Positions 8,050 to 56,680 of a stretch of 57,996 bases of DNA are shown one piece after another. Every line of letters begins with the position of its first letter. Positions within the stretch are counted from its first letter, which is position 1. The DNA lies in NCBI GenBank assembly GCA_944389315.1, contig CALXLX010000027.1, positions 1 to 57,996 of the forward strand. The letters are read 5' to 3'. Source of the DNA: an uncultured Opitutales bacterium (lineage in GTDB: Bacteria > Verrucomicrobiota > Verrucomicrobiia > Opitutales > Intestinicryptomonadaceae). The notes beneath the pieces are model-generated. The model did not search any database. It was not told the origin of the DNA and saw only the letters and a program-made list of their open reading frames with translations. A program made the translations under genes and the position numbers.

Positions 8050-10746
8050 ATGAGCCAAATAGACAAATCATACAATCCCTCCGAAGTGGAGGATAAATGG
8101 TACACGCGCTGGTTGGCCGACGGGTGTTTCAAGCCTTCGGACGACGCCTCAAAAGAGGCGTACAGCATAGTAATTCCGCCGCCTAACGTAACGGGCGTGC
8201 TTACCATGGGCCACGTCTTAAACAACACCATTCAGGATATTTTGATAAGGCGCGCGCGCCAGGAGGGGAAGGCTGTTGTGTGGATTCCCGGCACCGACCA
8301 TGCGGGAGTTGCCACGCAGACAAAGGTAAACGCCGTTTTGCGCTCTGAGGGCACATCCGCGGCAAAGCTCGGCCGCGAGCGCTTCTTGGAAAGGGCGCGC
8401 AAGTGGCGCGACGATCACGGCGGCATAATCATAGAGCAGCTTAAGAAGCTCGGGGCCTCTTGCGACTGGTCCCGCCTCGTCCACACCCTCGACGACGACT
8501 ATTCCAAGGCGGTTCTCACCGCGTTTGTAAAGCTGTTCAAGGAGGGGCGCATATACAGGGGCAAGCGCATGGTCAACTGGTGCCCTGTAAACCTCACGGC
8601 TCTTTCAGACGAGGAGGTCATAATGACCCCCACAAAGAGCAAGCTTTACAGGATGCGCTACGAGCTCGTCGACGAGCCCGGAAAATTCCTTGAGATTTCC
8701 ACGACGCGCCCCGAAACCATAATGGGCGACAGCGCCGTTGCGGTAAATCCGGCCGACCCGCGCTATTCTCACCTTATCGGAAGAAAGATTTACAGGCCCT
8801 TCCCGAAGAAGGAAATTCCCATAATAGGGGATTCCTATGTGGACATGAAGTTCGGCACGGGAGTTCTGAAGGTGACCCCCGCGCACGACGCTGCGGACTT
8901 TGAGATAGGCCAGAGGCACAATCTCGAAGTTATAGACGTCATGAATCCCGACGGCACCATGAACGCCCTCGCCGGGCCCGAATTTGAGGGGCTCGACAGG
9001 TTCGAGGCGCGCAAGAAAGCCGTCGAGATGCTCGACAGCCTCGGATTGTTGGTGAAGATAGAGGATTACGAAAACAACATAGGCATATCCGAGCGCGGCC
9101 AGGTGCCGATAGAGCCCAGGCTCTCGGACCAGTGGTTTTTGCGCTATCCGAAGGTAGATGAGGCCAAGGACGCAGTTTCCAAGGGGTTGATAAAGTTTTG
9201 GCCGCAGCGCTGGGAGAAGGTGTATTTGCACTGGCTCGACAATATCCGCGACTGGTGCATAAGCCGCCAGATATGGTGGGGGCACCGCATACCCGTATGG
9301 TACAGGAAGGGCGTGGAGAATCCGGATATAAACAATCCGCAGGAGGTCTACGTCGGGGTGGAGCCTCCGCCGGACCCGGAGAACTGGAACCAGGACGAGG
9401 ATTCTTTGGACACCTGGGCAAGCTCCTGGCTGTGGCCTTTTGCCACCATGGGCTGGCCCGATAAGGACGCCATGGAAAAGAGCGGGCTTTCACGCTTCTA
9501 TCCCACAAGCGACCTTGTCACGGGTCCGGACATCATATTCTTCTGGGTTGCCAGAATGATAATGGCCGGTATGGAGTTCATGGAGGGCGGCGAGAAGGAC
9601 AAAATACCCTTTAAGAACGTGTATTTTACGGGCATAATACGCGACATGCAGGGCCGCAAGATGTCAAAGAGCCTGGGCAATTCGCCGGATCCTTTGGATA
9701 TCATAGCGCGTTTCGGCGCCGACGGTCTGCGCTTCGGGGTGATGAACTGCGCTCCGCAGGGGCAGGACATTCTCTTTAGCGAGGAGCGCGTGCAGCTGGG
9801 CAGAAACTTCTGCAACAAGCTGTGGAACGCCTGCAGGTTCCGCCAGATGTCGGGCGAAATTGCGGACAATACGTCCCTTGAAAAGATAGTGTCGCGCATG
9901 GATTTCTCCAAGCTCGATTCCGACGACCACGCTTTGCTTGCGTCGCTTGAGAAAGCCTCGCAGGCGGTTGCGAAGGATTATGCCTCCTATCAGTTCAACT
10001 CCATAACGCAGACGCTTTACGCATTCTTCTGGACGGATTTCTGCGACTGGTATCTGGAGGTCTCCAAGGCGAGAATGTCCGACGAATCCGCCAAGCAGAC
10101 CGTGCTTGCCGTGCAGGATTTGGCAATCAGGCAGACGCTTTTGCTGCTGCATCCGTTCATGCCGTTTATCACGGAGGAATTGTGGCATTCTATGGGCTAT
10201 GCAAAGTCGGAGTCGGAGCACATACAGGACGTCTCCCCGAATTTTTCGGAGGCGCTGGCTTCCTGCGGCCTTAAGATAGACCAGCTTGCTCTTGAAACTA
10301 CCGCAAAGATGCAGGAGTTTGTTTCGGCCGCGCGCGCGCTTAAGGCCCAGTACAAGCTCGGCACAAAGCGCGACAGCAAAATCTCGCTGCTCGCCTCGGG
10401 CGACGGCGCGCGCATACTCTCGGAGAATCTCGAAAAGCTGAAGAAGCTTGTGGGCGCGCAGAGCATAGAGGCGGTTTCTTCTGCGCCGGATTCCCCCGCA
10501 GCGATAACCCCGCTGGGCACGGTCTATCTCGACCTTTCCGGAGCCATAGACGCCGAGGCCGAAAAGAGAAAAATCGGCAAGGAGCGCGAGAAAATGCTTT
10601 CCCTCATAGCCTCCACAAAGGCGAGGCTGTCGAACGAGGCGTTTGTCTCCAAGGCGCCCGCGGCGGTGATAGAGGGCGCAAAAAAGCAGCTCGCCCTCTA
10701 CGAGGAAAAGCTCGCTGAGATGGACCGCATATTAAAGCAGCTTTAA
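8050..10746 (+). CDS. valS: Valyl-tRNA synthetase
   Basis: Class I aminoacyl-tRNA synthetase that charges tRNA-Val and edits threonine. At 898 residues it has family length. The nucleotide-binding HIGH region is PPPNVTGVLTMGHVL (Thr52-Met-Gly-His55, the first His replaced by Thr), and KMSKS is at 537-541. The editing domain (TTRPETIMGDSAVAVNP) lies between them, the anticodon-binding domain follows, and the C-terminal tRNA-binding coiled coil runs from about 830 to the end. ATG 8050 gives the usual MSQIDKSYNPSEVEDKWY start. An in-frame TTG at 7999 is possible but adds non-conserved residues. A strong terminator follows. Confidence 0.95.
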   Translation: MSQIDKSYNPSEVEDKWYTRWLADGCFKPSDDASKEAYSIVIPPPNVTGVLTMGHVLNNTIQDILIRRARQEGKAVVWIPGTDHAGVATQTKVNAVLRSEGTSAAKLGRERFLERARKWRDDHGGIIIEQLKKLGASCDWSRLVHTLDDDYSKAVLTAFVKLFKEGRIYRGKRMVNWCPVNLTALSDEEVIMTPTKSKLYRMRYELVDEPGKFLEISTTRPETIMGDSAVAVNPADPRYSHLIGRKIYRPFPKKEIPIIGDSYVDMKFGTGVLKVTPAHDAADFEIGQRHNLEVIDVMNPDGTMNALAGPEFEGLDRFEARKKAVEMLDSLGLLVKIEDYENNIGISERGQVPIEPRLSDQWFLRYPKVDEAKDAVSKGLIKFWPQRWEKVYLHWLDNIRDWCISRQIWWGHRIPVWYRKGVENPDINNPQEVYVGVEPPPDPENWNQDEDSLDTWASSWLWPFATMGWPDKDAMEKSGLSRFYPTSDLVTGPDIIFFWVARMIMAGMEFMEGGEKDKIPFKNVYFTGIIRDMQGRKMSKSLGNSPDPLDIIARFGADGLRFGVMNCAPQGQDILFSEERVQLGRNFCNKLWNACRFRQMSGEIADNTSLEKIVSRMDFSKLDSDDHALLASLEKASQAVAKDYASYQFNSITQTLYAFFWTDFCDWYLEVSKARMSDESAKQTVLAVQDLAIRQTLLLLHPFMPFITEELWHSMGYAKSESEHIQDVSPNFSEALASCGLKIDQLALETTAKMQEFVSAARALKAQYKLGTKRDSKISLLASGDGARILSENLEKLKKLVGAQSIEAVSSAPDSPAAITPLGTVYLDLSGAIDAEAEKRKIGKEREKMLSLIASTKARLSNEAFVSKAPAAVIEGAKKQLALYEEKLAEMDRILKQL

Positions 10747-10784
10747 GGCTTTTTTTAAGCCGTCCGGCTTTGTAAAAGTATTTT

Positions 10785-10820
10785 CGCGCGGAAGGCATAA
10801 AGCTTTCCGCGCGTTTTTTT
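10785..10820 (+). terminator. Rho-independent terminator after valS
   Basis: Perfect 9-bp GC-rich stem CGCGCGGAA/TTCCGCGCG (10785-10793 with 10805-10813) and a T7 run, about 40 nt after the valS stop. Confidence 0.85.
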
Positions 10821-10908
10821 ACGCTTTGCGGGTATCTCGCTTTGGAGCTTCCTTAATTGAAAGGTGGATCTTATGGAAAAATAACGGCCCGCGTGCGGCT
10901 GCGGATGC

Positions 10909-10941
10909 AAAAAAATTCCCCCGAAGCGTTCTCCGGGGGAA
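10909..10941 (-). terminator. Rho-independent terminator for the minus-strand lipoprotein gene
   Basis: Inverted repeat TTCCCCC/GGGGGAA (10916-10922 with 10935-10941). On the minus strand it is followed by a T7 run (A7 at 10909-10915). It lies 27 nt beyond the stop of the gene ending at 10968, facing the valS terminator. Confidence 0.8.
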
Positions 10942-10967
10942 AGGAGTTAAGCGCGCGGACTTATATG

Positions 10968-13535
10968 TTAGTCCGCCCGCTGAATCTCAACAATCTTTAT
11001 GCCGAAAGGCTCGAGAGATACCCCGAAGCTGTTATCCTTTATATCAGCATCTTTTGAAGATATATTCTTCCAGCCCAATACGGAAGGGCCTATTTTTACA
11101 GACGTATCAAGCTTATGGGCGCTGCTGTTTAGGATTATCGCAAACAGGCTTTTGCCGTCTTTTGAAACGGCGCACAGATAGTCGGCATTGGGGGAGGAAG
11201 TTTTCAAAAGGCCCTGCTTTATTATTATGTCGGCCTCGCGCCCGCGCACCTTGCCAGGCTTGAACCCAAAGCATTTTTGCGGGCCGACTTTCGGGGTGAA
11301 GAATCCTCTCGGGAAGGATATCTCGCCGCCCGAGCGCATTTGAGCCTCGGAGAGCAGATAGTCTGTTATCCAGCCTATCTGCCACCAGACGTGGTTGGGG
11401 AAGTCCAGCTTGCGGTCGAAATTTGCCCAGTAGTAAGAGTACACCTGCTGCGCGCTTACAAAGCAGTCTTTTGCAAGCGCGGCGTGGCGCGCCATGTCGA
11501 GGAATATCTTATCCTTTGTAATATCGTAGATTCTTACAAAATATCCGGCGTGCGTCGCCAAATTTATGGGCCCCCCGCCGCGCGCCGAACCCATGGCGCC
11601 GCCGTGTTCAAAGCTCAGCCCGACCTGGCTTAGCTGCCACTGCTCCACGGGATTGCCCCTGTATATGCGCGGCGCCTTGCTGTCTATGGGGTGGGTGTAG
11701 ACGCTGAAAGTGTAGAGCCTTGCGGCCTTGATTGCCGCGTCGAGATATTTCTTCTTGCCGGTCAGCTCGTACATGTCCAGGAGACCTTGTCCCACCTGCG
11801 CGGTGGCGAAGTCGTTTACAAAGCGGTGGTCTCCGCATACGCCTATGAAATACGCGGGGTTTACGGCGTTTTCTATAATCCAGTCCGCCCCCTTCTCGGC
11901 GGCATCGAGGTATTTCTCGTCCCCGAGTATGCGGTAGGCGACATACATGCCGTAGAATGTGGGGCGCAAATCCTCTATATCCTTAAATACGGGTTCGCGG
12001 GTGTTGGTGTCGTAGGCGACCTCCCAGGAGCCGTCGGGCTTTTGCCATTCAAGAAGCTTGTCGGCTCCCAGGCGCAGGAGCTCTTTTATGCCGCTGTCTT
12101 CGGGCTCAAAGAGCATTATGTTGCCCAGGTCTATTATGGTGTAGTAGGTAAGGCCTATGGGCTCGTAATGGTCGTGGTACTCCTCTATAAACCTGTTTTG
12201 AGAGCATATGAAGTACTGCCCGCGCGCGGCCCCCTTGAAAAACCCCTCCGAGGTGTCCTGCTGGGCGAATTTGAAATTGCGCATGTATTGCAGGCGTCGG
12301 GTTTTTACCTCGTCGTCGCCAGAGGTAAAGCCAAGCATCCAGGCGGCGCCTATGTCGGTATTCTTCATCTCGCCGCGCTTGCCTATTTTTGGGGAGAACC
12401 CCTGGGCGCCTATCTTTCTGCCCTCGTAGTCTACGACCTTCCAGTAGGATTCGGCGTCGTTCATTATGTAGGAGCGCATGTTCAAGACGCGCTCGGAGAG
12501 GGACACTTTTGCGTCCTTTAAAGCGAGGGTGTCGCCAAGTTTGTATATATCCTCAGCGGCATGCCTGTATACATCGAAATATCCGTTTCCCCCGAGGGTG
12601 TAGCGCAGCTTAAATATGCGGGGTTGACCGCTGTCTGTAAGAGAGTCCGCCTGGCCGAGAACAGGGTAGTAGGCCGTGGGGGAGAGCTTGCCAGAACGCG
12701 CCATGTGCGAAAGCCCGACCTTCCATACGGAATGCTCGGACTTGTCTTTGGGGTAAGGGTCCCGTGCCTGTCCGGGCTCCACTATGACTCCCAAGGACAA
12801 TCCGCCCCGGCTCTCGAGTATCGAGGCCATGGTAGTTGTGGTATCGTCGCGGGTTATTACGGGGTACTCGGGCAGACCCTGCGCATAGACATACGCATGC
12901 ACGAAATTTTTATTTATGCTTTTGCCTTGAAACCACCCCGGCACTATTCCCCAAGAAAGGTCTTCCTCCTTTAGCTCGGCAAGGGAGGGCGAGGATACGC
13001 TGTAATAGGCCTTTTCGTTCGGAGTGAACTTTGTTTCAACCAAAACATCTTTTGGGTTGTTCTTATCGAGGAACCAGGCCGCCTCAAAAAGGCCGTAGGC
13101 GGTGTTGCGGGAGAATATGAGCCTGCCGTCTGCCGTTTTTGAAGCCTTGTCGGGCCAGAAGCTTATGGCTTCTCCGGCTCTATTCATGGCGACGGGGCTT
13201 GTGGCGCTGTTGTACCTTTTTATGCAGTAGACAAAGTTCTTTTCCGGAAAGTTTACGATTTTCCCCTCCGATATGACTTTCACGCCGTTTTCGGAATCCG
13301 GGCGCTCCTTGGATTTTATGAGGGTGTACATGCCCGACGGCGCGCCGAAGCTCTTGCCGTTTAGGGAAAATTCCTCCAACTCCCAGCCGCGAGGACTTTT
13401 ATGCCATACGAGAGAGATTTCCCCGTTGTTTAGCGATATTTTCCCCTTTTCAGTTTCATAATTTGCGTCTTTATGCGCGCAGCCGGAAAATAGCACAGCG
13501 CAAAACGTAAATGCCAATAATAGTTTTGTCTTCAT
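10968..13535 (-). CDS. Large lipoprotein, putative alpha/alpha-toroid glycan-active enzyme (paralogue A)
   Basis: An 855-residue predicted outer-surface lipoprotein: signal MKTKLLLAFTFCAVLFSGC with a lipobox Cys. GGAGG lies 5 nt before ATG 13535. An N-terminal beta-rich part (about 25-340) precedes a helical region (about 350-720) with repeated motifs of the form KKYLDAAIKAARLYTF and EKYLDAAEKGADWIIEN, typical of alpha/alpha toroid glycosidases and lyases. The C-terminus is again beta-rich (GLLKTSSPNADYL, LFAIILNSS). Paralogues at 19007 and 45797 share the block VGLSFE near Trp-Gln-Leu-Ser, the YxLTGxxxxLDAA helix and the LLKT end. No CAZy family could be named by eye, so substrate and mechanism are open. 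A role in polysaccharide degradation is inferred from fold and neighbours. Confidence 0.6.
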   Translation of the reverse strand: MKTKLLLAFTFCAVLFSGCAHKDANYETEKGKISLNNGEISLVWHKSPRGWELEEFSLNGKSFGAPSGMYTLIKSKERPDSENGVKVISEGKIVNFPEKNFVYCIKRYNSATSPVAMNRAGEAISFWPDKASKTADGRLIFSRNTAYGLFEAAWFLDKNNPKDVLVETKFTPNEKAYYSVSSPSLAELKEEDLSWGIVPGWFQGKSINKNFVHAYVYAQGLPEYPVITRDDTTTTMASILESRGGLSLGVIVEPGQARDPYPKDKSEHSVWKVGLSHMARSGKLSPTAYYPVLGQADSLTDSGQPRIFKLRYTLGGNGYFDVYRHAAEDIYKLGDTLALKDAKVSLSERVLNMRSYIMNDAESYWKVVDYEGRKIGAQGFSPKIGKRGEMKNTDIGAAWMLGFTSGDDEVKTRRLQYMRNFKFAQQDTSEGFFKGAARGQYFICSQNRFIEEYHDHYEPIGLTYYTIIDLGNIMLFEPEDSGIKELLRLGADKLLEWQKPDGSWEVAYDTNTREPVFKDIEDLRPTFYGMYVAYRILGDEKYLDAAEKGADWIIENAVNPAYFIGVCGDHRFVNDFATAQVGQGLLDMYELTGKKKYLDAAIKAARLYTFSVYTHPIDSKAPRIYRGNPVEQWQLSQVGLSFEHGGAMGSARGGGPINLATHAGYFVRIYDITKDKIFLDMARHAALAKDCFVSAQQVYSYYWANFDRKLDFPNHVWWQIGWITDYLLSEAQMRSGGEISFPRGFFTPKVGPQKCFGFKPGKVRGREADIIIKQGLLKTSSPNADYLCAVSKDGKSLFAIILNSSAHKLDTSVKIGPSVLGWKNISSKDADIKDNSFGVSLEPFGIKIVEIQRAD

Positions 13536-45796: not shown

Positions 45797-48700
45797 CTAG
45801 TTTTCGGCCGGAACGGCTCTTTCTAGCGTGAAATACTCGGTTTCAAAAGGTTTATCGTTTGAGAGAGTTCCCCTGAACTTGAATTTCACGGATTTTACCG
45901 GTGAGTCTATCCTTGCGGAGAAATCGTAGGGATATTTGTCCTTTTTCAGGGAGATTTTGCGCCCGCCGGCGTCTATGAGCATCTCTATGTTCTTAAAGGT
46001 GCCGTATGGGGAGTCCATCCATGCGTAGGCGTCCCAAAACTTGTCCGTAACCGCTATTGCGACGGCGCTCAGCGTGCCTTCGTCAAGCTTCTTACTCATG
46101 AAAGTTTTTTGGGCGTTTGCTATCTTGGTCTCTATCGGACGGTGGGAGTCCACCCGGATATCGAGGGAATCTATCATGAAGATTCTCTGTTGGCGCGGCC
46201 CTATGGACACCTCGGCCGAGGCGTTTTTCAATGCGAGTTTTTCCGGCGAGGCAGAATCTATGCGGGTCATGTATTCAAAACCTCCTTCGCTCTTTGATAT
46301 GGCTTTGGGGTTAAACCAGACGGTGAATTTTTGGGATTTGTCGGACTGGTTTGTGAAAACCGCAAAGAATTTGTCCTTCGTATGGGCGGCTATCCAGTTT
46401 ATCTGGGGGTTGTTCGTCTTTACGAGATTGCGGTTTATCCAAAGCCATGCGCCTTTGTGCCCGCATATCTCGCCGGGCTCGTGCCCGTATATTAGGCAGT
46501 CGAAATACGCGTATCCGAATTGCCTTAAGGACGGGAATTTTATTTTGCCCTCGGACTTTAATACCGAATCGCTTATAAGATAATCCAGCGACCACGACAG
46601 ATGCACAGGAAGATGATGGTAGTATATGAAACTTATATCCGGCCCCTCGTACGGGAATTTCGCGGACTGCGTTATGTCCGAGAAATCCGTATAGTAGTAC
46701 CCCGGATAATTGCCCCATCTGCCTACTACTGCGTTGCGCGCATAGGTTTCGTAGGTTTTGTCCTTAGTGTATTGCGCCAGCCTGAGGAAATTGGGCGCCC
46801 ATGGAGACTGCATTATCATGCGCCCGCCCTGTTTCATGTATGTGTACGTGCAAGGCTGCTCGAAGCTCAGCCCGACGTTTGAAACCCTCCAGGCGTCCAC
46901 TTCCTTTTCTGTTAGGGTGTCGTAGCCGATGGGGAATCCCAATCTGTATTTCCCGTCGCCCCTGTGCAATATGAGGTTGGGCTTGTCCGCCCCGACCTCC
47001 CCGTCAAGGTGTATGGGAGTCTTCCCCTCGGGGAAGCGCGGCTGCGTCCATACGCCCGTCATCAGCACTTTTGCGCCCAATTCGGCAGCATCGAGAAAAC
47101 GCTTTTCACCGGTGACCTCGTAAAAGCGCAGCATGCTCTCCCATTTGGGGACAAACGAACATAAAAAGAATGGATTTAAACCGAGATCGTCGTCGGGAGC
47201 GCCAGTTATGTTTCTGGCTATGTACCAGTCGGCTCCGGCTATGGCCTCGTCGAGGTCTTTCTTGTCCTTGGTGTGCTCGTATTTTGCCAGTTTCTCGGCG
47301 AAATCGTCGTGCTTTGAACCTATCCTTATCCCGCTGCCAGCCGGAAATGCGATATCGGCAAAACGGGGGGTATATCCGGCGCAGAGCTTGTCTAGCCCGT
47401 CGAAAACCGTACTCCCGACAGTGCGCAACGGCCCGCTCATGGAGCCGGCTCCGTACCCTTTGCCGGTATCGTGGGGAACTTCCGAAAAATGCCATCCGCT
47501 CCGCGAGAGCGAGTATTCCAATATGGGAAGGGCGCGCTTGTCGTACATTTGCTCGGAATCCATTATCCTGTACAGGCTCAGCGCTATCATCGGGGCGGAA
47601 TTGCTCGCCCCGTTGTGGCTTTCTATCTGGTAGAACCCCTTTGAGGATTCCCACCAACCGCCGTATTTGTCGTCAAGCATAAGGTCGGCCATGTTCAGGC
47701 AAGCGTCTGTCAGAGAACAGTCGGTGTTGCTGCGATAGTCCCTCAGCCCGAAAATCTCGTCCGCGGCGCACCTGTAGGCGTCGTACCAGGAACCGTCCTC
47801 GAATATTGCGTTGAACGAATAGTCAAGACGGTCTCCCCGGCTTATAAACGCCTCCTCCGTGCCTATTATCGGGCCAAAGGTGGAGGGCTGCACCAGCCCT
47901 CTCGGGTTTTTTATCTGCATGACATAATGCGACAAAATGGGAGTGGGAAATTCAAATGGAGTTTTGGAATCGTCGCCCACAACCCCGAATGTGGCCTCCC
48001 CGCCCGCGTCAAAACTCATGACGGACATGGGGGTGGGAGCGGCCCCCTGCAACATGGAATAATTTGTCCTTGGAAAACGCTTGCGCTGAACAAGCATGGG
48101 CATGAGAAGCTCGGAAACATCGTCGATAGGCTTAGCCACGGGAATGAAATATCCCAGGGAATATTGCCCCTCCTTTCCGGCGGAAAAGTTCAGCCTCACA
48201 TTGGCGTAACTCTTGTTCTCCTTGAGAACCCATACGGCTTTCAAATTTCCCACGGGCGTCGGGTAGAAATCTATCTCCACGGTGTCCTTTGAGATGTTTT
48301 TAGCGGATTTTGGCACGGCTTCGTAGCAGACCCCGGCGTTCCATATCACGGGCTCCCCACCGCGGCTCGTCTCTACAATCTTGGAATTTCCAAGGTCTAT
48401 TTTCGCGGACTTCCTCTTAGTGTTGCTCCATTGCGGGTGATAGTGCCTGTGCGGCAGGTCGAAAGTGACGTTGTCGTCGGCCCGAACCACGGCGTAAGCC
48501 TCGGAGTCGGGATACACCCGCCTGTCGGAACCGATGCAAACGACGGGCGCAACAGAGCTCTTTCCACCGCGAGTGCACTTGACAAAGTCTATTTTTATGC
48601 GCCCGTTGGAAAGCGTCGCCTGCGGGGATTTTTCGTTCAAATTCTCTATCTTTGCAAAGTTCAATTCAAAGTCAGCCAGCTTGGAGCATGTCGCGGGAGC

Positions 48701-49228
48701 AATGCCTTTTATGCCGTCGAGAAATAGTGTGGTCCGCGGGGAATATTTAGGATTCTTAGACAGTATGAGCGCGTCTATTTCAACGCTGTCTTTCGGAGAC
48801 CGGCATGTAAAGGCCAGGACGTTTTCCCCCTTTTGCAGCTGTATGGGGGCTGCGCGCTCCCATCTCCATTCCCCGCCTTCCCGCGCGAATACGGTTTCTA
48901 TTTTGTTCCCGTTTATCCACAGTTCAACCCCGCCAGGAGCCCCATTCATATTGCGGCTTCTCAAGAAGGGCGTGTATAAGCCCGACTCCGGCAGAATTAT
49001 GGATGTCACCGCAGGCTCGCTTCCGCCGCCAAACCTTAGGCTCTTTTGCTGGGACGCCGCTCTTGCGGGGGATAAATTCCACGATCCGTTATATTCGAAA
49101 CTTTCGCATTCTATCCCGATGACTCCCTTCGGTTCGGCGGTGCACAATAATGTTCCCATTGCGAAGAACGCGGACAATATTGCAAATTTTGAAATATGTA
49201 GAATTGTGGCGTTTATATTTGGAATCAT
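45797..49228 (-). CDS. Very large secreted putative alpha/alpha-toroid glycan-active enzyme (paralogue C) with N-terminal CBM-like domain
   Basis: The 1143-residue exported protein has a signal region about 12-32 (FAILSAFFAMGTLLCTA). Residues about 35-155 resemble a CBM6/35-type sugar-binding sandwich (IGIECESFEYNGSW, GVELWINGNKIETVF, IDALIL). A second beta domain (about 190-490) precedes the helical toroid (about 510-900), with YEVTGEKRFLDAAELGAKVLM, WRVSNVGLSFEQPC and ARNAVVGRWGNYPGYYY. The block IYGHEPGEICGHKGAWLW with NLVKTNNPQINWIA and a C-terminal beta domain (KYPYDFSARIDSPVKSVKF) align with paralogue B. Catalytic residues and substrate are unknown. It is the largest of the three paralogues. 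Confidence 0.65.
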   Translation of the reverse strand: MIPNINATILHISKFAILSAFFAMGTLLCTAEPKGVIGIECESFEYNGSWNLSPARAASQQKSLRFGGGSEPAVTSIILPESGLYTPFLRSRNMNGAPGGVELWINGNKIETVFAREGGEWRWERAAPIQLQKGENVLAFTCRSPKDSVEIDALILSKNPKYSPRTTLFLDGIKGIAPATCSKLADFELNFAKIENLNEKSPQATLSNGRIKIDFVKCTRGGKSSVAPVVCIGSDRRVYPDSEAYAVVRADDNVTFDLPHRHYHPQWSNTKRKSAKIDLGNSKIVETSRGGEPVIWNAGVCYEAVPKSAKNISKDTVEIDFYPTPVGNLKAVWVLKENKSYANVRLNFSAGKEGQYSLGYFIPVAKPIDDVSELLMPMLVQRKRFPRTNYSMLQGAAPTPMSVMSFDAGGEATFGVVGDDSKTPFEFPTPILSHYVMQIKNPRGLVQPSTFGPIIGTEEAFISRGDRLDYSFNAIFEDGSWYDAYRCAADEIFGLRDYRSNTDCSLTDACLNMADLMLDDKYGGWWESSKGFYQIESHNGASNSAPMIALSLYRIMDSEQMYDKRALPILEYSLSRSGWHFSEVPHDTGKGYGAGSMSGPLRTVGSTVFDGLDKLCAGYTPRFADIAFPAGSGIRIGSKHDDFAEKLAKYEHTKDKKDLDEAIAGADWYIARNITGAPDDDLGLNPFFLCSFVPKWESMLRFYEVTGEKRFLDAAELGAKVLMTGVWTQPRFPEGKTPIHLDGEVGADKPNLILHRGDGKYRLGFPIGYDTLTEKEVDAWRVSNVGLSFEQPCTYTYMKQGGRMIMQSPWAPNFLRLAQYTKDKTYETYARNAVVGRWGNYPGYYYTDFSDITQSAKFPYEGPDISFIYYHHLPVHLSWSLDYLISDSVLKSEGKIKFPSLRQFGYAYFDCLIYGHEPGEICGHKGAWLWINRNLVKTNNPQINWIAAHTKDKFFAVFTNQSDKSQKFTVWFNPKAISKSEGGFEYMTRIDSASPEKLALKNASAEVSIGPRQQRIFMIDSLDIRVDSHRPIETKIANAQKTFMSKKLDEGTLSAVAIAVTDKFWDAYAWMDSPYGTFKNIEMLIDAGGRKISLKKDKYPYDFSARIDSPVKSVKFKFRGTLSNDKPFETEYFTLERAVPAEN

Positions 49229-49516: not shown

Positions 49517-50077
49517 TCAGAGTATTCCCAAGGTTTTCAGCCATTTCTCGGCATCCGCAGACGCATTTTTCGCCGAAGTCCCCCTTACGGCCAGCCCTTC
49601 AAGAACTCCGGATTTCGGACAGAGCTTTTTTATGTCTTCAGCGGCCCTCCCCATGCGGCTGCCCTCGTGCGTTATAAACGGGGCAATTCTCTTTCCTGAA
49701 AAGTCATGCGAGGCAAGCACGGAACGTATGGGAGATGATATGGTCCCCCACCAGTTCGGCGAGCCTACAAAAATAAGCCCGTATTCGGAAATATTTTTTA
49801 TTTCGGTCTTTATCGGTGGTTTATAGTTTGAGTCTACCTCCTTCTTCGCCTGCGAAACAGTTTTGTTGTATTCGGACGGGTAGGGTGTTTGCGGGATAAC
49901 CTCGACTATGTCGGCTCCGGTTAAACCCTTTATCGTTTTTGCGAGACTTCGGGTGTTGCCGCTCCACGAGTAGTATATTATAAGGCTCTTTTTAGATGCG
50001 CTGTCCGCGGACTGCGCCCACGCTTTGGCGGCGGTCAATGCGGCTGGCAGGAGGGCGATAAACTTCTTTCTTTTCAT
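49517..50077 (-). CDS. Exported flavodoxin-fold protein
   Basis: 186 residues. The N-terminus MKRKKFIALLPAALTAAKAWAQS is a clear signal peptide, so the flavodoxin domain (about 30-180) is predicted outside the cytoplasm. SLIIYYSWSGNTRSLAKTI is the FMN-phosphate loop (SWSGNT), GLIFVGSPNWWGTISSP is the second FMN loop (Trp over the flavin), and FITHEGSRMG matches the Flavodoxin_4 group. Such proteins carry one or two electrons via FMN. It is divergent from an AraC-family regulator across a 287-bp region with repeats, which suggests control by that regulator and a shared role with the downstream ferredoxin and aldo/keto reductase genes. Confidence 0.85.
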   Translation of the reverse strand: MKRKKFIALLPAALTAAKAWAQSADSASKKSLIIYYSWSGNTRSLAKTIKGLTGADIVEVIPQTPYPSEYNKTVSQAKKEVDSNYKPPIKTEIKNISEYGLIFVGSPNWWGTISSPIRSVLASHDFSGKRIAPFITHEGSRMGRAAEDIKKLCPKSGVLEGLAVRGTSAKNASADAEKWLKTLGIL

Positions 50078-50228
50078 ATATTCTATCCTTTTAGTCGTCT
50101 ATGTATATATCTTCAATCCTAAATGCGGAATATGCTTTTCCGCATCCGCGCGTTTTTGCAACAGCGCCCAAGTCTGCCGGATATGGATGCTTGCAAAGCG
50201 GCTTATATGCGGAACGCGCAGCCTATAC

Positions 50229-50290
50229 TACCGCTAAAAGCTCCCTGAGTAAATATACGATACCGCCTAAAGTTTGCCTAATACCGCCTA
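50229..50290. promoter_or_regulatory. Candidate AraC-type operator: three phased TACCGC(C)TA repeats
   Basis: TACCGCTA at 50229-50236 and TACCGCCTA at 50261-50269 and 50282-50290. The starts are 32 and 21 bp apart, close to three and two helical turns, so all three face the same side of the DNA. They lie in the divergent region between the exported flavodoxin and the AraC-family gene. Direct repeats 21 bp apart are the usual arrangement for AraC/XylS activator half-sites. Binding is inferred. Confidence 0.5.
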
Positions 50291-50364
50291 TATGCCGCTT
50301 GACGGGAACGCCGATTTTTTTTGAATGTCTGTGAGCCCGGCGCCAACCACTCCGACTATATTGT

Positions 50365-51246
50365 ATGAATCTGTCTCAATTATCCCTCGATCTGAAAAAA
50401 CAGGCACTCAGACATCTGCCGTGCCAGGGAACTTTTCAATGCCCGATAGACGGCCTTGAATTTCACCGCATAGACGACCGTGTCCACCCGGAGAACTGCT
50501 TTTATAAGCCAATGATAATAATCATGCTTCAGGGCAGGAAACGGGTTGCCATAGGAAACAGGGAGTATACCTACGGCCAGGGGCAGTGCCTCGTCTCGGG
50601 AGTGAACGTGCCAGCGACGAGCTGCTTAGTGGAGGGAAGTCCGGAAAAACCGGCCATCGCGGTGTCTTTGGATTTGGATACAAATCTTCTCTCGCGCATG
50701 CTTACGGAGATTCCTCCCGTTCCTTCGCCGCTGAGGGAATCCAGCGAAAGCATAGCCGTTGACACCGCCGAAGGCGACATTCTCGACGCATTCTCGCGTC
50801 TGTTGCGCCTATTGGATAAAGGTTCTCAAATACCCGCAATAGCGCCCATAATTATTCGGGAAATATATGCCAGGCTTATCATAAGCCCTCTGGGGAGAAA
50901 TCTGAGGCAATTTTGCACAAAGGGAACCCGCAATAACTCCATCATGCGCGCGGTTAACTGGCTAAAGAAAAACTACTCCAAGCCTTTTAAGATAGAGGAG
51001 CTTGCGAAATATTCCCACATGGCCCCGACGACATTCCACAGGCATTTCAAGGCTGTTACGTCCGTCAGCCCGTTGCAGTACCAGAAAAGGCTGCGCCTGT
51101 ACGAGGGCAAGCATCTTATGCTCTTCGGTAATAGAACCGTTGCCGAGGCGGCGTATTCTGTCGGATATGAGAGCCCTGCGCAGTTTAGCAGGGAGTACAA
51201 AAGATTTTTCGGCGTATCTCCTAAAAAAGACGCATTTTTACAATAA
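50365..51246 (+). CDS. AraC-family transcriptional regulator (YqhC-like)
   Basis: 293 residues. The N-terminal AraC_N domain (about 15-165; YKPMIIIMLQGRKRVAIGNREYTYGQGQCLVSG) is of the type found in YqhC, which responds to aldehydes and controls an aldehyde reductase and an aldo/keto reductase. The C-terminal AraC/XylS DNA-binding domain (about 190-290) has both helix-turn-helix units, FKIEELAKYSHMAPTTFHRHFK and VAEAAYSVGYESPAQFSREYKRFFG. It is divergent from the exported flavodoxin and upstream of the ferredoxin and aldo/keto reductase genes, which are its likely targets. No ribosome site is visible at ATG 50365. Confidence 0.88.
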   Translation: MNLSQLSLDLKKQALRHLPCQGTFQCPIDGLEFHRIDDRVHPENCFYKPMIIIMLQGRKRVAIGNREYTYGQGQCLVSGVNVPATSCLVEGSPEKPAIAVSLDLDTNLLSRMLTEIPPVPSPLRESSESIAVDTAEGDILDAFSRLLRLLDKGSQIPAIAPIIIREIYARLIISPLGRNLRQFCTKGTRNNSIMRAVNWLKKNYSKPFKIEELAKYSHMAPTTFHRHFKAVTSVSPLQYQKRLRLYEGKHLMLFGNRTVAEAAYSVGYESPAQFSREYKRFFGVSPKKDAFLQ

Positions 51247-51589
51247 GATGCCCTTAAATTTCCGCTGCTGAGGGCATACTTTAAGAAAGCTGGCCGGGGC
51301 ATGCCCGCAAGGTAGGATTAGGCAGATTTTTGGCGGCATCGTGTATTTACAAAAACCGGGCGATTTCGTAATATTTAGGCATGAAAGCTGCCGCGGCGGA
51401 ATCTATACGCAACTTGCCCTCTAAGATGGGCGCCCTGAGGCGGCAGGCAAAAAATGCGCCTTTTGAATCTGCGCCGGATTTGGAAGATGGGCATGCCGCT
51501 TATGAGGCTGCCAAACAATTTTTATCTCCGGGGATTTTTACAATCGCCGCTTTTTTATTTTGAAACTTCTTTCGCATTGTGGTTATTTT
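51247..51589. other. Interval with a doubtful 60-codon frame
   Basis: About 340 bases. An ATG at 51381 opens a 60-codon frame ending at 51563, with an Ala-rich start and a hydrophobic end (FTIAAFLF). It has no ribosome site, no signal-like order and no recognised similarity, so it is not called as a gene. No terminator hairpin is evident after the AraC gene. Confidence 0.3.
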
Positions 51590-51617
51590 TTGAAAATATT
51601 AGATAGAATCTTATACT
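51590..51617 (+). promoter_or_regulatory. Candidate promoter of the ferredoxin/aldo-keto reductase operon
   Basis: TTGAAA (51590-51595), 16-nt spacer, TATACT (51612-51617). The -10 box ends 7 nt before ATG 51625, so transcription would start at or next to the start codon, giving a leaderless message. No Shine-Dalgarno is present. Confidence 0.5.
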
Positions 51618-51624
51618 CTGCCAT

Positions 51625-53154
51625 ATGACGTTGAGACGCATAAGAATAATTGCGGCAATACTGTTCTTCTGTGCCGTTACACTGTTGTTCTTGGATTTTA
51701 CATCGGCTACGCATGCGTGGCTGGGCTGGACTGCGAAGGTACAGTTTGTGCCGGCTCTCCTTGCCGCAAACTTCGCGGTGGTCGCGGGCCTGGTACTGCT
51801 GACGTTGATATTCGGGCGCATATACTGCTCTGTGGTCTGCCCTCTGGGAGTGCTGCAAGACGCATTCTCGCGCCTCGCCGCCCGCAGGCGGCGCAACAGA
51901 TTTGCCTACGCCAAGGCTTTGACGAAGGTGCGCGTGCTGTTTCTTCTGCTGTTTGTCCTGGCGCTCGCAATTGGGTTTCTCTCGGCGGCAGCGCTCATAG
52001 CCCCTTACAGCGCCTACGGCAGAATAGCGTCCAATATCTTCGCATCGGTATGGGCCGCTGCGAACAATGTCTTTGCGTTCTTTGCGGAGAAGGCGGATTC
52101 CTACGCCCTTTATTCCGTGGACGTATATTTCAAGGGGGCGGGGGCTTTCATGATAGCCTTGGCAACCTTCCTGATTGTAGCGTTTCTTGCATGGCGCGGG
52201 GGAAGGACATATTGCAATACGGTTTGTCCGGTCGGCACCGTGCTGGGGTTCCTGGCAGGCTATTCTATTTTCAGGCCGTTTATCGACGCCTCAAAATGCG
52301 TCTCCTGCGGACTCTGCGAGAAAAACTGCAAGGCAAAGTGCATAAATGCGGGGGAACACAAAATAGACTACTCAAGATGCGTGGCGTGTTTCGACTGCAT
52401 TGAAAAATGCAAAAAAGGCGCAATAACATACAGGCCGTTTTTCGTCCGAAAAGCGGCTGAAGAAAAACCCCGCGCAAGCGCGGATGCGGCCCGGCCTGCC
52501 GGATTGCGCAATTTAAAGGCGCATTCCAACGGCCGCAGGGGCTTTTTTGCGTCGGCGTTCTTTTTGGCGGCGTCGGCGGTATCTAAGGCGCAGGAGATGA
52601 AGCTCGACGGCGGGCTTGCCCCCATAAAGCCGAGGACGCCCGCAAAACGTTCGGAGCGCATAGTTCCGCCGGGCGCGGGGAGTGTCGCAAATTTTTCGGA
52701 CAAATGCACAGCCTGCCATCTTTGCGTGTCTGCGTGCAAGACGCATGTTTTGACACCCTCCGTGCGGGCGGAAAGCTTCTTGCAGCCGGAAATTTCATAC
52801 GAACGGGGCTATTGCGACATAGACTGTACGGAATGCTCAAAAGTCTGCCCGTCGGGCGCCATACTTCCCATATCCAAAGCTGACAAGGTCTCCACGCAGA
52901 TAGGCCGTGCGGTTTGGACCGCGTCGCTTTGCGTCGTAAATACGGACTCCATCCAGTGCGACAACTGTTTCAGGCAATGCCCAACCGGCGCTATACAAAT
53001 GATAGAGCGAGACCCTAAAGGCGACGCGAAACTTAAAATCCCGACGGTGGACGAAGCCCGCTGCATAGGCTGCGGCGCCTGCGAGAATCTATGCCCGGCC
53101 CGCCCGGTGTCGGCCATACATGTTGAGGGGTGCTCCGTTCACGGGAAAATATAG
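51625..53154 (+). CDS. NapH-NapG-like fusion: membrane polyferredoxin with internal twin-arginine segment
   Basis: 509 residues. The N-terminal half resembles NapH/MauN/CcoG: membrane helices at about 5-25, 44-64, 102-122 and 172-190, with the paired motifs CSVVCPLG (68-75) and CNTVCPVG (197-204). Two cytoplasmic [4Fe-4S] motifs follow (CVSCGLCEKNC 225-235, CVACFDCIEKC 252-262). Then comes a second module with RRGFFASAFFLAASAVSKA (304-322), which looks like the Tat-type N-terminus of NapG. After it are four more cluster motifs (CTACHLCVSAC 361, CDIDCTECSKVC 397, CDNCFRQC 445, CIGCGACENLC 480). The arrangement suggests an electron relay across the inner membrane. It is co-transcribed with the aldo/keto reductase 27 nt downstream. 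Confidence 0.85.
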   Translation: MTLRRIRIIAAILFFCAVTLLFLDFTSATHAWLGWTAKVQFVPALLAANFAVVAGLVLLTLIFGRIYCSVVCPLGVLQDAFSRLAARRRRNRFAYAKALTKVRVLFLLLFVLALAIGFLSAAALIAPYSAYGRIASNIFASVWAAANNVFAFFAEKADSYALYSVDVYFKGAGAFMIALATFLIVAFLAWRGGRTYCNTVCPVGTVLGFLAGYSIFRPFIDASKCVSCGLCEKNCKAKCINAGEHKIDYSRCVACFDCIEKCKKGAITYRPFFVRKAAEEKPRASADAARPAGLRNLKAHSNGRRGFFASAFFLAASAVSKAQEMKLDGGLAPIKPRTPAKRSERIVPPGAGSVANFSDKCTACHLCVSACKTHVLTPSVRAESFLQPEISYERGYCDIDCTECSKVCPSGAILPISKADKVSTQIGRAVWTASLCVVNTDSIQCDNCFRQCPTGAIQMIERDPKGDAKLKIPTVDEARCIGCGACENLCPARPVSAIHVEGCSVHGKI

Positions 53155-53181
53155 AATGAATATCGGAAAGGGATATTGAAT

Positions 53182-54960
53182 ATGAGCGAATTTCCTAAGG
53201 AACTTTTAAACCGCAGAAACTTCCTGAAAAATATGACGGTGGGGGCTCTTGCAGCTCCCGTTATGGGCGGATGCTCTCGGAAGGAAAATTCCGGCGAGCC
53301 TTCGGGGCAGATGACGATGAGGGTAAATCCCAAGACGGGGCAGAAGGTTTCCCTGCTGGGATACGGCTGCATGCGCTGGCCTTCGACGGACGGCAGAAGC
53401 GCGCGCGAAGGCGTCGGCGAAATAGACCAGGCTGCGGTAAACGAGCTTGTCGACTACGCCATAGCCCACGGGGTTAATTATTTCGACACGTCTCCCGCCT
53501 ATTGCAGGGGAAAATCTGAGCATGCCACGGGTTTGGCGTTGAGCAGGCACCCGAGGGATAAATATTTTATAGCTACGAAACTATCCAACTTTGCGCCGGC
53601 AACCTGGAGCAGGGAGGCTTCTTTGGAAATATACCGAAACTCGTTGAAGGAGCTGAGGGTGGACTATATCGACTACATGCTTTTGCACGGGGTCGGCATG
53701 GGCGGCGGAATGGACGAGTTTAAGTCGCGCTACATCAACAACGGAATGCTTGAGTTCCTCCTCGGAGAGCGTGAGGCCGGGCGTATACGCAATTTGGGAT
53801 TCTCATACCACGGTGACATAAGGGTTTTCGACTATCTTCTTGAAAAGCACGGCCTCTACAAATGGGATTTCGTCCAGATACAGCTTAACTATCTGGATTG
53901 GAAGCACGCCAAGAAGATAAACGAGCGCAACACCGACGCGGAATATCTATATGCCGAATTGTCCAAGCGCGACATTCCCGCCGTGATAATGGAGCCTCTT
54001 TTGGGCGGCAGGCTTTCGAGCGTTCCGCACACGATAGTTCCGTATTTCAAGCGGAGGGACCCCGACAGCAGCATAGCATCGTGGGCGTTTCGTTTTGCGG
54101 GGAGTTTTCCGAAGGTGCTGACCGTGCTGAGCGGCATGGTTAAGATGGAGCATTTGCGCGACAACATAAGGACCTATTCGCCCCTCCGAGAGTTGTCGGC
54201 CGAGGAGTTCGGCTTTTTGGAGAATGTGGCCGAGGAGATGATGCAGTTTAACACCATACCCTGCAACGATTGCAAATATTGCATGCCGTGCCCCTATTCT
54301 TTGGACATACCGGCAATATTGCTTCATTACAACAAGTGCCTGAACGAGCGCATGGTGCCGGACAGCGTTCTCGACGAGAATTACAAGAGGGCCCGTAGGG
54401 AGTATTTGATAGGCTACGACCGTTCCGTTCCGAAGCTGAGGCAGGCCTCGCAATGTACGGGGTGCGACCAGTGCAGTCCGCATTGCCCCCAGCGAATAGA
54501 CATTCCCAAGGAGCTCCGCCGCATAGACGGGTTTGTCAGAAATCTAAGGCGGCAGGCCGCCCTTATGGGGGACGTTAGGAGGAAGTTCGACGAGGGGAAA
54601 TATTCCTGCGTCATAGGAAACGGCGTCATAAGGACTTTTTCCGATCCCGGGGTTGACGACCTGCTTAGAATTTACCGCGACGAACCATCGCTTTTAAAGG
54701 GAGCGCTTGTTGCCGACAAAGTTGTAGGCAAAGCCGCCGCCTCTATTCTTATAATGGGCGGGGTATCGGAGGTTTACGCAGATGTTTTGAGCCGTCCGGC
54801 GCGGGCCATGCTGAACAGGGCCCGGATAATTGTATCGTGCAAGACCCTTGTAAATAATATAAAGAACAAGAAGGGGACAGGGCTTTGCCCGCTTGAAATT
54901 AAGTGCAAGAAAGCTAAGACGCCCGAAGAGTGCCTGAAAATTCTTCTCGGCATGCGTTAA
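53182..54960 (+). CDS. Tat-exported aldo/keto reductase with two [4Fe-4S] motifs and C-terminal DUF1893 domain
   Basis: 592 residues from ATG 53182 (GGAAAGG upstream). The N-terminus has a twin-arginine signal RRNFLKNMTVGALAAPVMGGC, possibly ending in a lipid-modified Cys31. The aldo/keto reductase barrel (about 45-345) keeps the whole tetrad: Asp102 and Tyr107 (NYFDTSPAYCRG), Lys133 (ATKLSN) and His169 (LLHG). The ferredoxin-like part has Cys361/364/367/370 and Cys425/428/431/435. Residues about 466-590 match DUF1893, a deaminase-fold domain (VIRTFSDPG, MGGVSEVYADVLS, KGTGLCPLE). Substrate unknown. It probably receives electrons from the fused ferredoxin rather than NADPH if it truly acts outside the cytoplasm. 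Confidence 0.85.
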   Translation: MSEFPKELLNRRNFLKNMTVGALAAPVMGGCSRKENSGEPSGQMTMRVNPKTGQKVSLLGYGCMRWPSTDGRSAREGVGEIDQAAVNELVDYAIAHGVNYFDTSPAYCRGKSEHATGLALSRHPRDKYFIATKLSNFAPATWSREASLEIYRNSLKELRVDYIDYMLLHGVGMGGGMDEFKSRYINNGMLEFLLGEREAGRIRNLGFSYHGDIRVFDYLLEKHGLYKWDFVQIQLNYLDWKHAKKINERNTDAEYLYAELSKRDIPAVIMEPLLGGRLSSVPHTIVPYFKRRDPDSSIASWAFRFAGSFPKVLTVLSGMVKMEHLRDNIRTYSPLRELSAEEFGFLENVAEEMMQFNTIPCNDCKYCMPCPYSLDIPAILLHYNKCLNERMVPDSVLDENYKRARREYLIGYDRSVPKLRQASQCTGCDQCSPHCPQRIDIPKELRRIDGFVRNLRRQAALMGDVRRKFDEGKYSCVIGNGVIRTFSDPGVDDLLRIYRDEPSLLKGALVADKVVGKAAASILIMGGVSEVYADVLSRPARAMLNRARIIVSCKTLVNNIKNKKGTGLCPLEIKCKKAKTPEECLKILLGMR

Positions 54961-55175: not shown

Positions 55176-55237
55176 TTATAAATATGTTGACATAAGTTTG
55201 TTGAATGTTTGTATTAAACAAAAACGAAGGCTACAAT

Positions 55238-56680
55238 ATGGAACAAAAAAATAATATTAACTATGTGTTTTTTGATGATAATGCAGAACATAGAACATTT
55301 GCAAAAAATGTCGAAAAGCATTTCGGAAAAGCTGCAAAAATAACCTTCGTTATAGGGAAGAATTCCACTTCAGATGCGTCAACTTCGTTGCCGGACGGAT
55401 ACAATGTGGTTGATTTTTCCGAGAAATCTGTCAGGGGGCTTTTGTCGGATTCAAACAGCCGTTTTTTCTTCATATCCAGGAATGCCGACAGAAATGTCCA
55501 TCTGGCCTTTTCCCTGATGGACATAGCCAAAAAACTTAATATCACTACGGAGGGCATATCCATATACATAGCCCCAAATTGGGAGAACATAGAGGCGTTT
55601 ATATTAAACAAGCAGCGCAGCATGTTGCGCCACTTCGATGTAAAGCTGATAAACATACCCAATCTTGCCGCGCACACTCTCTCTGCAAAGTACAAGCCGG
55701 TGGACAATATTTTATTCGACGCCGACACCTGCGAGGCAAAGGAGGATTTCCGCGTCGCTGTTTTGGGGCTCAACCACATAACGCGCGAGGCTATGTTTAA
55801 GATTTATACGCAGGGGCGTTTTGTGAACTCCAAGTTTGTCTTGGATATATACGACGTCGGGGCGGAGGCGAAATCCGGAGGGTTTAAGTCAAAGTATCCG
55901 GGATTTGCAAAGGATGCGGATATAAGTTTCCTCGACTATGATAGATTTGCGGAGGCGGAGAAGGCGTTAAGGGATAATTTGTCCAAATACAAGCTGGTTA
56001 TAGCCGACATGGGCGACGACGCCAGAAATTCGGCATTTGCAAAGGATATGCAGGAGAAAATCTTGGAGGAGAATCTCGCGGGCATAACGGTTTCGGTGTA
56101 CATATCCTCTCCGGAGGAAGACATATTGAACGGCGACTTATACCCGAGCATAGCGGTATTCGGGATTTCTGAATCGATATACAACCCGGACGCCATACTG
56201 CTGGAGTCGTACTCCAGGAGCGGACGCTATGTAAACGACTATTACAACAGCACGAAATCCGATCCTATCAAGATGCGGAATTGGGTGGGCATGTCCGAGT
56301 TTGACAGGGGCTCAAACATATCGGTGGCTGATTTTAATTACTCGTTCATAAAGCTCATAGGGGCAGGGCGTTTTTCCGAATTTGGCTCTTCTGCGGATTT
56401 CAAGAAATGGCTGCACGATAATCCGAAGAAGTTCGATACGCTGACGAGGACCGAGCATTTGCGCTGGTGCGCCTATCTTTACGCCAACGGATGGGACTGC
56501 ATGCCCTTGGATAAGGACGTAATGGTGGAGAACAAGAACATGAAGGATAAGAGGCACACCTGTCTTGTGCCGTTCGACGAGCTCGACAAAGTGTCCGAAA
56601 TGTTCAACGAGGATTACAAGAAATACGATGCCGACAACGTGGAAATAATATACGACATATATAAAATCTTAAACTTCTAA
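55238..56680 (+). CDS. RCK/TrkA-like Rossmann protein with C-terminal RyR domain
   Basis: 480 residues from ATG 55238 (GAAGG 7 nt upstream); ATG 55205 is in frame but lacks such a site. The first part has TrkA-N/RCK-like alternating strands and helices (NYVFFDDNAEHRTFAKNVEK, FFFISRNADRNVHLAFSLM). A second Rossmann-like unit begins FRVAVLGLNHITREAMF, and its nucleotide loop is not a canonical GxGxxG. The C-terminus (about 398-470; RTEHLRWCAYLYANGW, DKRHTCLVPFDELDKVS, then YDADNVEIIYDI) matches the bacterial RyR domain. Such RCK-RyR proteins have been predicted to sense nucleotide-derived signals. No transmembrane helix is seen, so it is cytoplasmic. An exported pentapeptide-repeat gene follows after 13 nt. 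Confidence 0.7.
   Translation: MEQKNNINYVFFDDNAEHRTFAKNVEKHFGKAAKITFVIGKNSTSDASTSLPDGYNVVDFSEKSVRGLLSDSNSRFFFISRNADRNVHLAFSLMDIAKKLNITTEGISIYIAPNWENIEAFILNKQRSMLRHFDVKLINIPNLAAHTLSAKYKPVDNILFDADTCEAKEDFRVAVLGLNHITREAMFKIYTQGRFVNSKFVLDIYDVGAEAKSGGFKSKYPGFAKDADISFLDYDRFAEAEKALRDNLSKYKLVIADMGDDARNSAFAKDMQEKILEENLAGITVSVYISSPEEDILNGDLYPSIAVFGISESIYNPDAILLESYSRSGRYVNDYYNSTKSDPIKMRNWVGMSEFDRGSNISVADFNYSFIKLIGAGRFSEFGSSADFKKWLHDNPKKFDTLTRTEHLRWCAYLYANGWDCMPLDKDVMVENKNMKDKRHTCLVPFDELDKVSEMFNEDYKKYDADNVEIIYDIYKILNF

Follow-up and report, generated by a model that had tools for sequence, protein, structure and literature searches.

A NapH-NapG-type polyferredoxin paired with a putatively exported iron-sulphur aldo/keto reductase in Opitutales and Bacteroidales

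Introduction

From where would an aldo/keto reductase (AKR) draw its electrons if it worked outside the cytoplasm? The question is raised by a locus on contig CALXLX010000027.1 (GenBank assembly GCA_944389315.1) of an uncultured Opitutales bacterium, of which positions 1 to 57,996 were analysed (the window); the draft genome is 2.27 Mb in size and 91% complete. Between positions 49,517 and 54,960 lie genes for a flavodoxin, an AraC-type regulator, a fused NapH-NapG-type polyferredoxin (NapHG) and an AKR with iron-sulphur (FeS) cluster motifs. A preliminary description of this DNA had read the four as one inducible pathway for the reduction of carbonyl compounds or sugars in the cell envelope. 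A domain search confirmed the four open reading frames (ORFs) with the positions and domains assigned there; from the comparison of genomes reported here, only NapHG and the AKR form a conserved unit, with the flavodoxin and the AraC protein outside it.

Fused NapH-NapG proteins belong to a type whose dependence on the twin-arginine translocation (Tat) system has been demonstrated, as stated for the MLMS-1 protein Q1NSB0 in the available excerpt of Tooke et al. (2017, eLife, PMC5449189). The same excerpt assigns NapGH the part of a quinol dehydrogenase in nitrate respiration, and according to an excerpt of PMC6708511 the export of NapG is blocked when it loses FeS binding. In a search of open-licence papers, none of the titles and abstract beginnings listed described a unit of NapHG and an exported FeS-AKR, and PMC5449189 was the one source among them on the NapHG type. 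That search also returned nothing on DUF1893, the domain fused to the AKR of the window (the terms TM1506 and COG1453 gave only unrelated or Clostridium proteomics matches), and nothing on an exported or periplasmic AKR or flavodoxin.

Results

The napHG and akr genes are separated by 27 nt and, because they lie so close together, are probably co-transcribed. Conservation of the pair was followed in the best 80 of 386 loci ranked by AKR similarity, many of them on contigs of metagenome-assembled genomes (MAGs) and uneven in length. The AKR was directly preceded by NapHG in 77 of these 80 loci, almost all of them from Bacteroidales. This figure includes L089, which contains X letters and was outside the scripted motif counts, so that it was entered by eye, and four loci in which a contig edge truncates NapHG (L047, L075, L095 and L096); of the three loci outside it, L076 is truncated by a contig edge and L091 and L106 lack NapHG. 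Within the window's own family, the AKR was present in eight of 19 genomes and was adjoined by NapHG in all eight. Of the 11 genomes without the AKR, ten have only a NapHG of a more distant type (36-49% across the matched parts), and the last has none at all.

A sample of 149 Bacteroidales genomes, whose centre (G079) had been picked as an AKR carrier and in which G062 was a known carrier beforehand, was screened with thresholds of at least 500 bits for the AKR and at least 450 bits for NapHG. The AKR was detected in 26 genomes at 29 loci, with NapHG immediately adjacent at 26 of the 29. Adjacency was tallied by hand from tables, including G104 with a fragment and G225 with the gene order reversed, and leaving out G250, where NapHG lies 2.7 kb off; three of the AKR matches (G223, G121 and G225) contain in-frame stops. 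All 27 NapHG matches above the threshold were within AKR-positive genomes. Judged from gene order, NapHG and the AKR form a real and widely conserved pairing of a known type of conduit with a predicted exported FeS-AKR. A diverged AKR (41%, in a 499-aa frame) located 1.2 kb from a diverged NapHG was also observed in G133 (contig C26, 84152-88021) and may be a diverged version of the unit.

The NapHG polyferredoxin (509 aa; 51,625-53,154, plus strand) was characterized by its domains, hydropathy and cysteine spacing; the assessment of signals, here and below, draws on motif, hydropathy and conservation. Four membrane segments were predicted by hydropathy at residues 8-26, 45-63, 104-122 and 171-189, each above 1.6. 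An internal twin-arginine, R304 R305 (NGRRGFF; 52,534-52,539), directly precedes a last, weakly hydrophobic segment with a best 19-residue hydropathy of 0.98, and was kept in 74 of 76 scored NapHG relatives, both misses being contig edges. From the cysteine spacing, two [4Fe-4S] motifs follow the fourth segment, on the predicted cytoplasmic side, and four follow the twin-arginine segment, on the predicted periplasmic side. This polytopic N-terminal part with the twin-arginine before the last segment is the layout of the dual Sec/Tat polyferredoxin of MLMS-1, as given in the PMC5449189 excerpt, and both are NapH-NapG fusions with four clusters on the periplasmic side. They differ in that the MLMS-1 protein has three clusters on the cytoplasmic side, seven in total, whereas the window protein has 2 + 4 motifs, and in that no AKR partner is named for MLMS-1 in that excerpt. 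NapHG is thus predicted to be a variant of the dual Sec/Tat NapH-NapG polyferredoxins, with a shared architecture and a different cluster number.

With the NapGH of periplasmic nitrate reduction, the window protein has in common a NapH-like part of four segments and a NapG-like Tat polyferredoxin. It differs from it in being fused, in adjoining an AKR and in scoring far under the curated cut-offs (71.3 of 269 bits for NapG and 60.9 of 213.05 bits for NapH/MauN). The genome holds two partial PF00384 matches (237-349 and 280-350 of 353 positions; 27 bits, with the cut-off at 24), which do not amount to a full molybdoenzyme. A role in nitrate respiration was rejected on the missed NapG and NapH cut-offs and on these matches, in which no convincing nitrate reductase was recognized in the 91% complete genome.

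The AKR (53,182-54,960, plus strand) was delimited from its ORF, domains and alignment, and has 592 aa when read from the ATG at 53,182, which is a more likely start than the TTG at 53,176, as the aligned entry P0001 begins at 53,182. It was aligned with homologues to give 62 sequences, taken out of 120 listed homologues (8000 scored). The N-terminus reads MSEFPKELLNRRNFLKNMTVGALAAPVMGGC, a Tat-type leader (NRRNFLK, of the S/T-R-R-x-F-L-K type) leading up to a lipobox-like Cys31; this signal core (53,212-53,274) contains R11, R12, F14 and C31, which are invariant in all 62 sequences, and the RRxF motif was found in 78 of 79 scored loci, the single miss being a contig edge. The (beta/alpha)8 barrel (53,311-54,231; domain search, structure model and alignment) carries the tetrad D102, Y107, K133 and H169. 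It is followed by two [4Fe-4S] motifs (54,262-54,486), C361/364/367/370 and C425/428/431/435, and both the tetrad and all eight of these cysteines are likewise invariant (62/62). Cytoplasmic AKRs, such as L-galactose dehydrogenase and members of AKR11 and AKR14, have the same barrel and Asp-Tyr-Lys-His tetrad, to which the window protein adds the Tat-lipoprotein-like leader, the two cluster motifs and a DUF1893 fusion.

The C-terminal DUF1893 (TM1506) domain (54,577-54,945; PF08973, E = 1.6e-40) belongs to the family of TM1506 (PDB 1vk9) and differs from it in being fused to a putatively exported enzyme. As the AKR barrel filled the list when the whole model was used for a fold search, the domain was folded separately; modelled alone, it has a deaminase-like fold, as in RibD, PurH and a formate dehydrogenase accessory protein. 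In the AKR tree, which is a single search with a midpoint root and bootstrap values not fully settled, AKR-DUF1893 fusions fall in two separate clades, and the fusion appears to have arisen at least twice.

Eight weaker AKR paralogues were detected in the Bacteroidales sample. Seven of them align only from residue 42-50 onward, six of these in frames of 383-406 aa in which the leader would not fit; the eighth (G106:C20) aligns from residue 9. The diverged AKR of G133 described above is also one of the eight.

Linkage to tat genes was also examined. In 14 of the 80 loci a tatC gene was located 0.2-4.0 kb downstream of the AKR frame, each time on the same strand; the expectation for the whole 1.18 Mb of these loci is about 0.5, assuming one copy per ~2.6 Mb; at least 3 kb of DNA was available 3' of the AKR frame in 68 of them. 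In the Bacteroidales sample, tatC was within 5 kb of the AKR in five of the 26 AKR-positive genomes (G132, G144, G171, G223 and G250). Quite apart from the signal motif, this linkage strongly supports a Tat route of export for the AKR. TatC was above its cut-off in 26/26 AKR-positive compared with 98/123 other Bacteroidales genomes (P = 0.005, uncorrected for kinship), in 48 of 50 AKR carrier genomes, and once in the genome of the window. Its mere presence is weak evidence for Tat export of the AKR, because 124 of the 149 Bacteroidales genomes have it. Varying subsets of a separate DUF1893 gene, an energy-coupling factor (ECF)-type S component, tatA and tatC were found downstream of the AKR in relatives, as in L059, where NapHG and the AKR are directly followed by DUF1893, an ECF S component-like protein, TatA (identified by eye) and TatC (9407-11356).

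The envelope signals that had been described for the three redox proteins were thus recovered: a Sec-like signal on the flavodoxin, seen by eye, the four hydropathy segments and internal NGRRGFF of the polyferredoxin, and the twin-arginine signal of the AKR. The adjacency of the genes, the invariant Tat motifs and the linked tat genes also uphold, as a prediction, an extracytoplasmic electron-transfer unit of NapHG and a Tat-exported FeS-AKR. The lipobox-like Cys31 and the DUF1893 domain were additions to that description.

In the AKR tree the Opitutales sequences form one clade (100/99) within a supported set, the remaining 47 rows being of Bacteroidales type under the midpoint root. A sample of 54 relatives contained no close AKR homologue outside the window's family, the best match reaching 68.8 bits. 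The simplest reading of these data is that the AKR moved horizontally from Bacteroidales; from the accompanying genomes, the related carriers would live in guts. Three MAGs titled Clostridium, Paenibacillus and Staphylococcus (L101, L105 and L108) carry AKRs that cluster with those of Bacteroidales, and their titles are probably wrong.

The remaining genes of the locus were less constant. The flavodoxin (Flavodoxin_4, E = 6e-26; 186 aa; 49,517-50,077, minus strand) has the Sec-like signal MKRKKFIALLPAALTAAKAWA/QS, and is divergent from the AraC_N/HTH_18 regulator gene detected by domain search (50,365-51,246, plus strand), which ends 378 nt upstream of napHG. Between the two, an operator-like direct repeat (50,260-50,290) consists of two copies of ATACCGCCTA, at 50,260 and 50,281 and hence 21 nt apart. 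These are its sole exact occurrences in the window, which when scanned gave no exact copy upstream of napHG; an exact 10-mer repeat with 18-25 nt spacing appeared in three of 2000 single-base shuffles, and a similar TGCCTAATACTGCC was seen by eye in the flavodoxin-araC gap of L032. Because the repeat sits between flavodoxin and araC and not before napHG, the AraC protein is probably a regulator of the flavodoxin, loosely associated with NapHG-AKR. Its labelling as YqhC-type rests on the AraC_N domain, which we take YqhC to carry.

A flavodoxin and an AraC_N regulator lie upstream of the pair in three of seven Opitutales loci, namely the window, L032 from a sister species (60-64% identity for the two proteins) and L033 (35-37%). 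Upstream neighbours were inspected in seven of the eight AKR genomes of the family (all except G017), with 2.1-6.4 kb of upstream DNA in six, and no orthologues of either were found in the upstream DNA examined of L034, L037, L119 and L120. Among the 80 loci, relatives of the window AraC were near the pair in L032 and L033 only, and other AraC-type regulators were within 1.5 kb of it in six. Fifteen loci have a flavodoxin-type gene no more than 1.5 kb upstream of the pair: in eight it is Flavodoxin_4-like, directly upstream and on the same strand in L035, L039, L084 and L101, and in seven it encodes a Tat-leader protein whose start looks flavodoxin-like by eye and in which Pfam sees only Fer4. 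Genes of the latter kind (L057:5496-6443, L060:5296-6237 and relatives) either directly precede NapHG or are transcribed divergently from it. Any exported protein of flavodoxin type would depend on flavin mononucleotide (FMN) outside the cytoplasm, unless it crossed the membrane already loaded. Putatively exported proteins of this type are thus a recurrent but optional neighbour of NapHG-AKR, and the flavodoxin is best read as an extra carrier with its own regulator. As for the proposal of four genes in one co-occurring locus, it stands for NapHG and the AKR (77/80), and is too generous for the flavodoxin and AraC_N genes (3/7); the flavodoxin keeps a place as a recurring, dispensable partner.

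An ECF-type S component is encoded near the AKR or DUF1893 in 18 of the 80 loci. Its family, PF12822, is generic, with L057 above and L101 below the cut-off, and in a structure comparison no solved S component matched. A TonB-receptor-type gene is just downstream and on the same strand in six loci (L072, L082, L083, L084, L092 and L099), the Pfam run having been made on those of L082 and L084. In L072, L083 and L092 it is followed by a gene for a DUF362-type protein.

The more distant type of NapHG found in the window's family was examined in two loci, L116 (2104-4879, on contig C11 of G000) and L118 (5520-8304), where its neighbour is a DUF362 protein (PF04015, 1.8e-49 and 8.3e-47, respectively) that has a twin-arginine leader. 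They share with the window a NapHG-type conduit by a partner with such a leader, which is DUF362 there and the AKR here, and appear to be a parallel unit of NapHG plus exported partner in the same family. Flanking the locus, 45,797-49,228 (minus strand) encodes a protein of 1143 aa that starts with a signal-like stretch, matches no Pfam family and has a 70% identical relative in the same place in L032, and a 491-aa ORF without Pfam or NCBIfam match directly follows the AKR (55,205-56,680, plus strand).

Discussion

We propose that NapHG is a conduit serving a periplasmic, lipid-anchored AKR exported by Tat. Sec would insert the four NapH-type segments, leaving two clusters to face the cytoplasm, and the Tat-dependent NapG segment would put four clusters into the periplasm. 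Electrons from menaquinol or a cytoplasmic donor would reach the outer NapHG clusters, which would dock with the two [4Fe-4S] clusters of the AKR to complete a chain, and the AKR would spend them on the reduction of a periplasmic carbonyl compound. DUF1893 would be a bound partner of the AKR, fused to it here and elsewhere usually encoded by a separate gene; a separate DUF1893 with no signal would either hitchhike through Tat with the AKR or act earlier as a maturation factor. To this reading as a whole, which is built on sequence comparison, we assign a probability of about 0.5. A location of the AKR outside the cytoplasm is very probable, and NapHG is likely to be its electron partner. A carbonyl compound as the substrate has somewhat better than even odds, and the odds for a reductive flow are even; this direction is preferred because NapGH has been described as a quinol dehydrogenase and the carriers are largely anaerobes.

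Several observations weigh against this proposal. The AKR is without NapHG in L091 and L106, is not beside it at G181:C46 and G121, and is 2.7 kb from it at G250, and the search for TatC gave no match in two of the 50 carrier genomes. The strict lipobox pattern, which the MGGC of the window fits, was found in 49 of the 62 aligned AKRs, though the +1 cysteine is present in all 62, and the structure model is of low confidence in the FeS region (block means 40-70). No signal was visible by eye in the separate DUF1893 genes of relatives, and a single open frame spans DUF1893 and the TonB-receptor-type gene in L072 and L099. Without a flavin, one-electron clusters would not easily deliver hydride. 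As the tetrad is intact and the pair D327-N328, residues that we take to face the adenine of NAD(P), is invariant, a tightly bound nicotinamide cofactor is possible; column 320, presumably the site where an Arg for the 2'-phosphate of NADP would be expected, is V/T/A/S. Tat exports folded, cofactor-loaded proteins, so that the preliminary argument that an enzyme outside the cytoplasm has no NADPH is not compelling. One such case is the NADP-containing glucose-fructose oxidoreductase, a Tat cargo according to a title cited in PMC6708511.

The electron source bears on the same question. The idea that lack of menA implies lack of quinone was dropped, as the genome has menaquinone-pathway-like genes: an MqnE-like gene (335 bits, below the cut-off of 434.55), a UbiA-like gene (above its cut-off) and a UbiX-like gene. 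The midpoint potential of menaquinone is about -74 mV and that of carbonyl/alcohol couples about -190 mV. On these values carbonyl reduction by menaquinol would run uphill and require a stronger donor or help from the proton motive force, a further point against the proposal; with menaquinol as the sole partner they favour oxidation, and with a stronger cytoplasmic donor to NapH they favour reduction.

Reversed flow is an alternative of some substance, in which the exported AKR would oxidize a periplasmic sugar or alcohol, like L-galactose dehydrogenase, and NapHG would carry the electrons inward to menaquinone. The common barrel says nothing on the substrate, NapGH as described in the PMC5449189 excerpt works outward, and for carriers that are largely gut anaerobes electron sinks should be worth more than extra input; we regard it as rather doubtful. 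The TonB-receptor-type and ECF-type neighbours (6/80 and 18/80 loci) hint at a compound that is taken up, and would fit a path for a vitamin or cofactor precursor, imported by a TonB-type receptor, altered in its redox state by the AKR, taken in by the S component and handled by DUF1893, whose fold recalls that of RibD and PurH. Such a path is unlikely, as neither gene type was seen next to the pair in those four of the 80 loci that are from Opitutales, and the S component assignment suffers from the generic family, the score of L101 and the missing structural match.

Less probable again is the AraC-controlled pathway of four proteins for aldehyde stress, with the exported flavodoxin ferrying electrons to the AKR, as the preliminary description would have it. 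The three Opitutales loci with both extra genes speak for it, as do flavodoxin-type genes in 15 of the 80 loci and other AraC-type regulators in six, all at no more than 1.5 kb, but 65 loci have no flavodoxin-type gene at that distance, AraC_N-type relatives are limited to L032 and L033, the operator-like repeat is confined to the flavodoxin-araC gap, and the flavodoxin would require FMN in the periplasm. That the AKR is cytoplasmic and its twin-arginine segment no working signal is highly improbable: AKRs are normally cytoplasmic and the separate DUF1893 partners have no visible signal, but RR, F and Cys are invariant in 62/62 sequences, tat genes are linked, and seven of the eight weaker paralogues align only downstream of the leader, six being too short to hold it.

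If NapHG does feed an exported AKR, the chemistry of this enzyme family would move to the envelope and no longer be tied to the NAD(P)H pool. In anaerobic Bacteroidales and Opitutales, carbonyls, sugars or vitamin precursors in the periplasm would then serve as a sink, or a source, of electrons, and DUF1893, for which the structure entries found carry no function, would gain a concrete partner. The small set of napHG, akr, duf1893 and tatC is directly testable in cultured Bacteroidales, among which Phocaeicola coprophilus and Parabacteroides bouchesdurhonensis, the hosts of L050 and L057, carry the pair. More tentatively, and with less than even odds, these genes may represent a hitherto unrecognised membrane redox system of gut bacteria in which extracytoplasmic AKRs work without diffusible NAD(P)H, wired by NapHG and partnered by DUF1893, with tatAC in the operon in some lineages and a transfer from Bacteroidales to gut Verrucomicrobiota.

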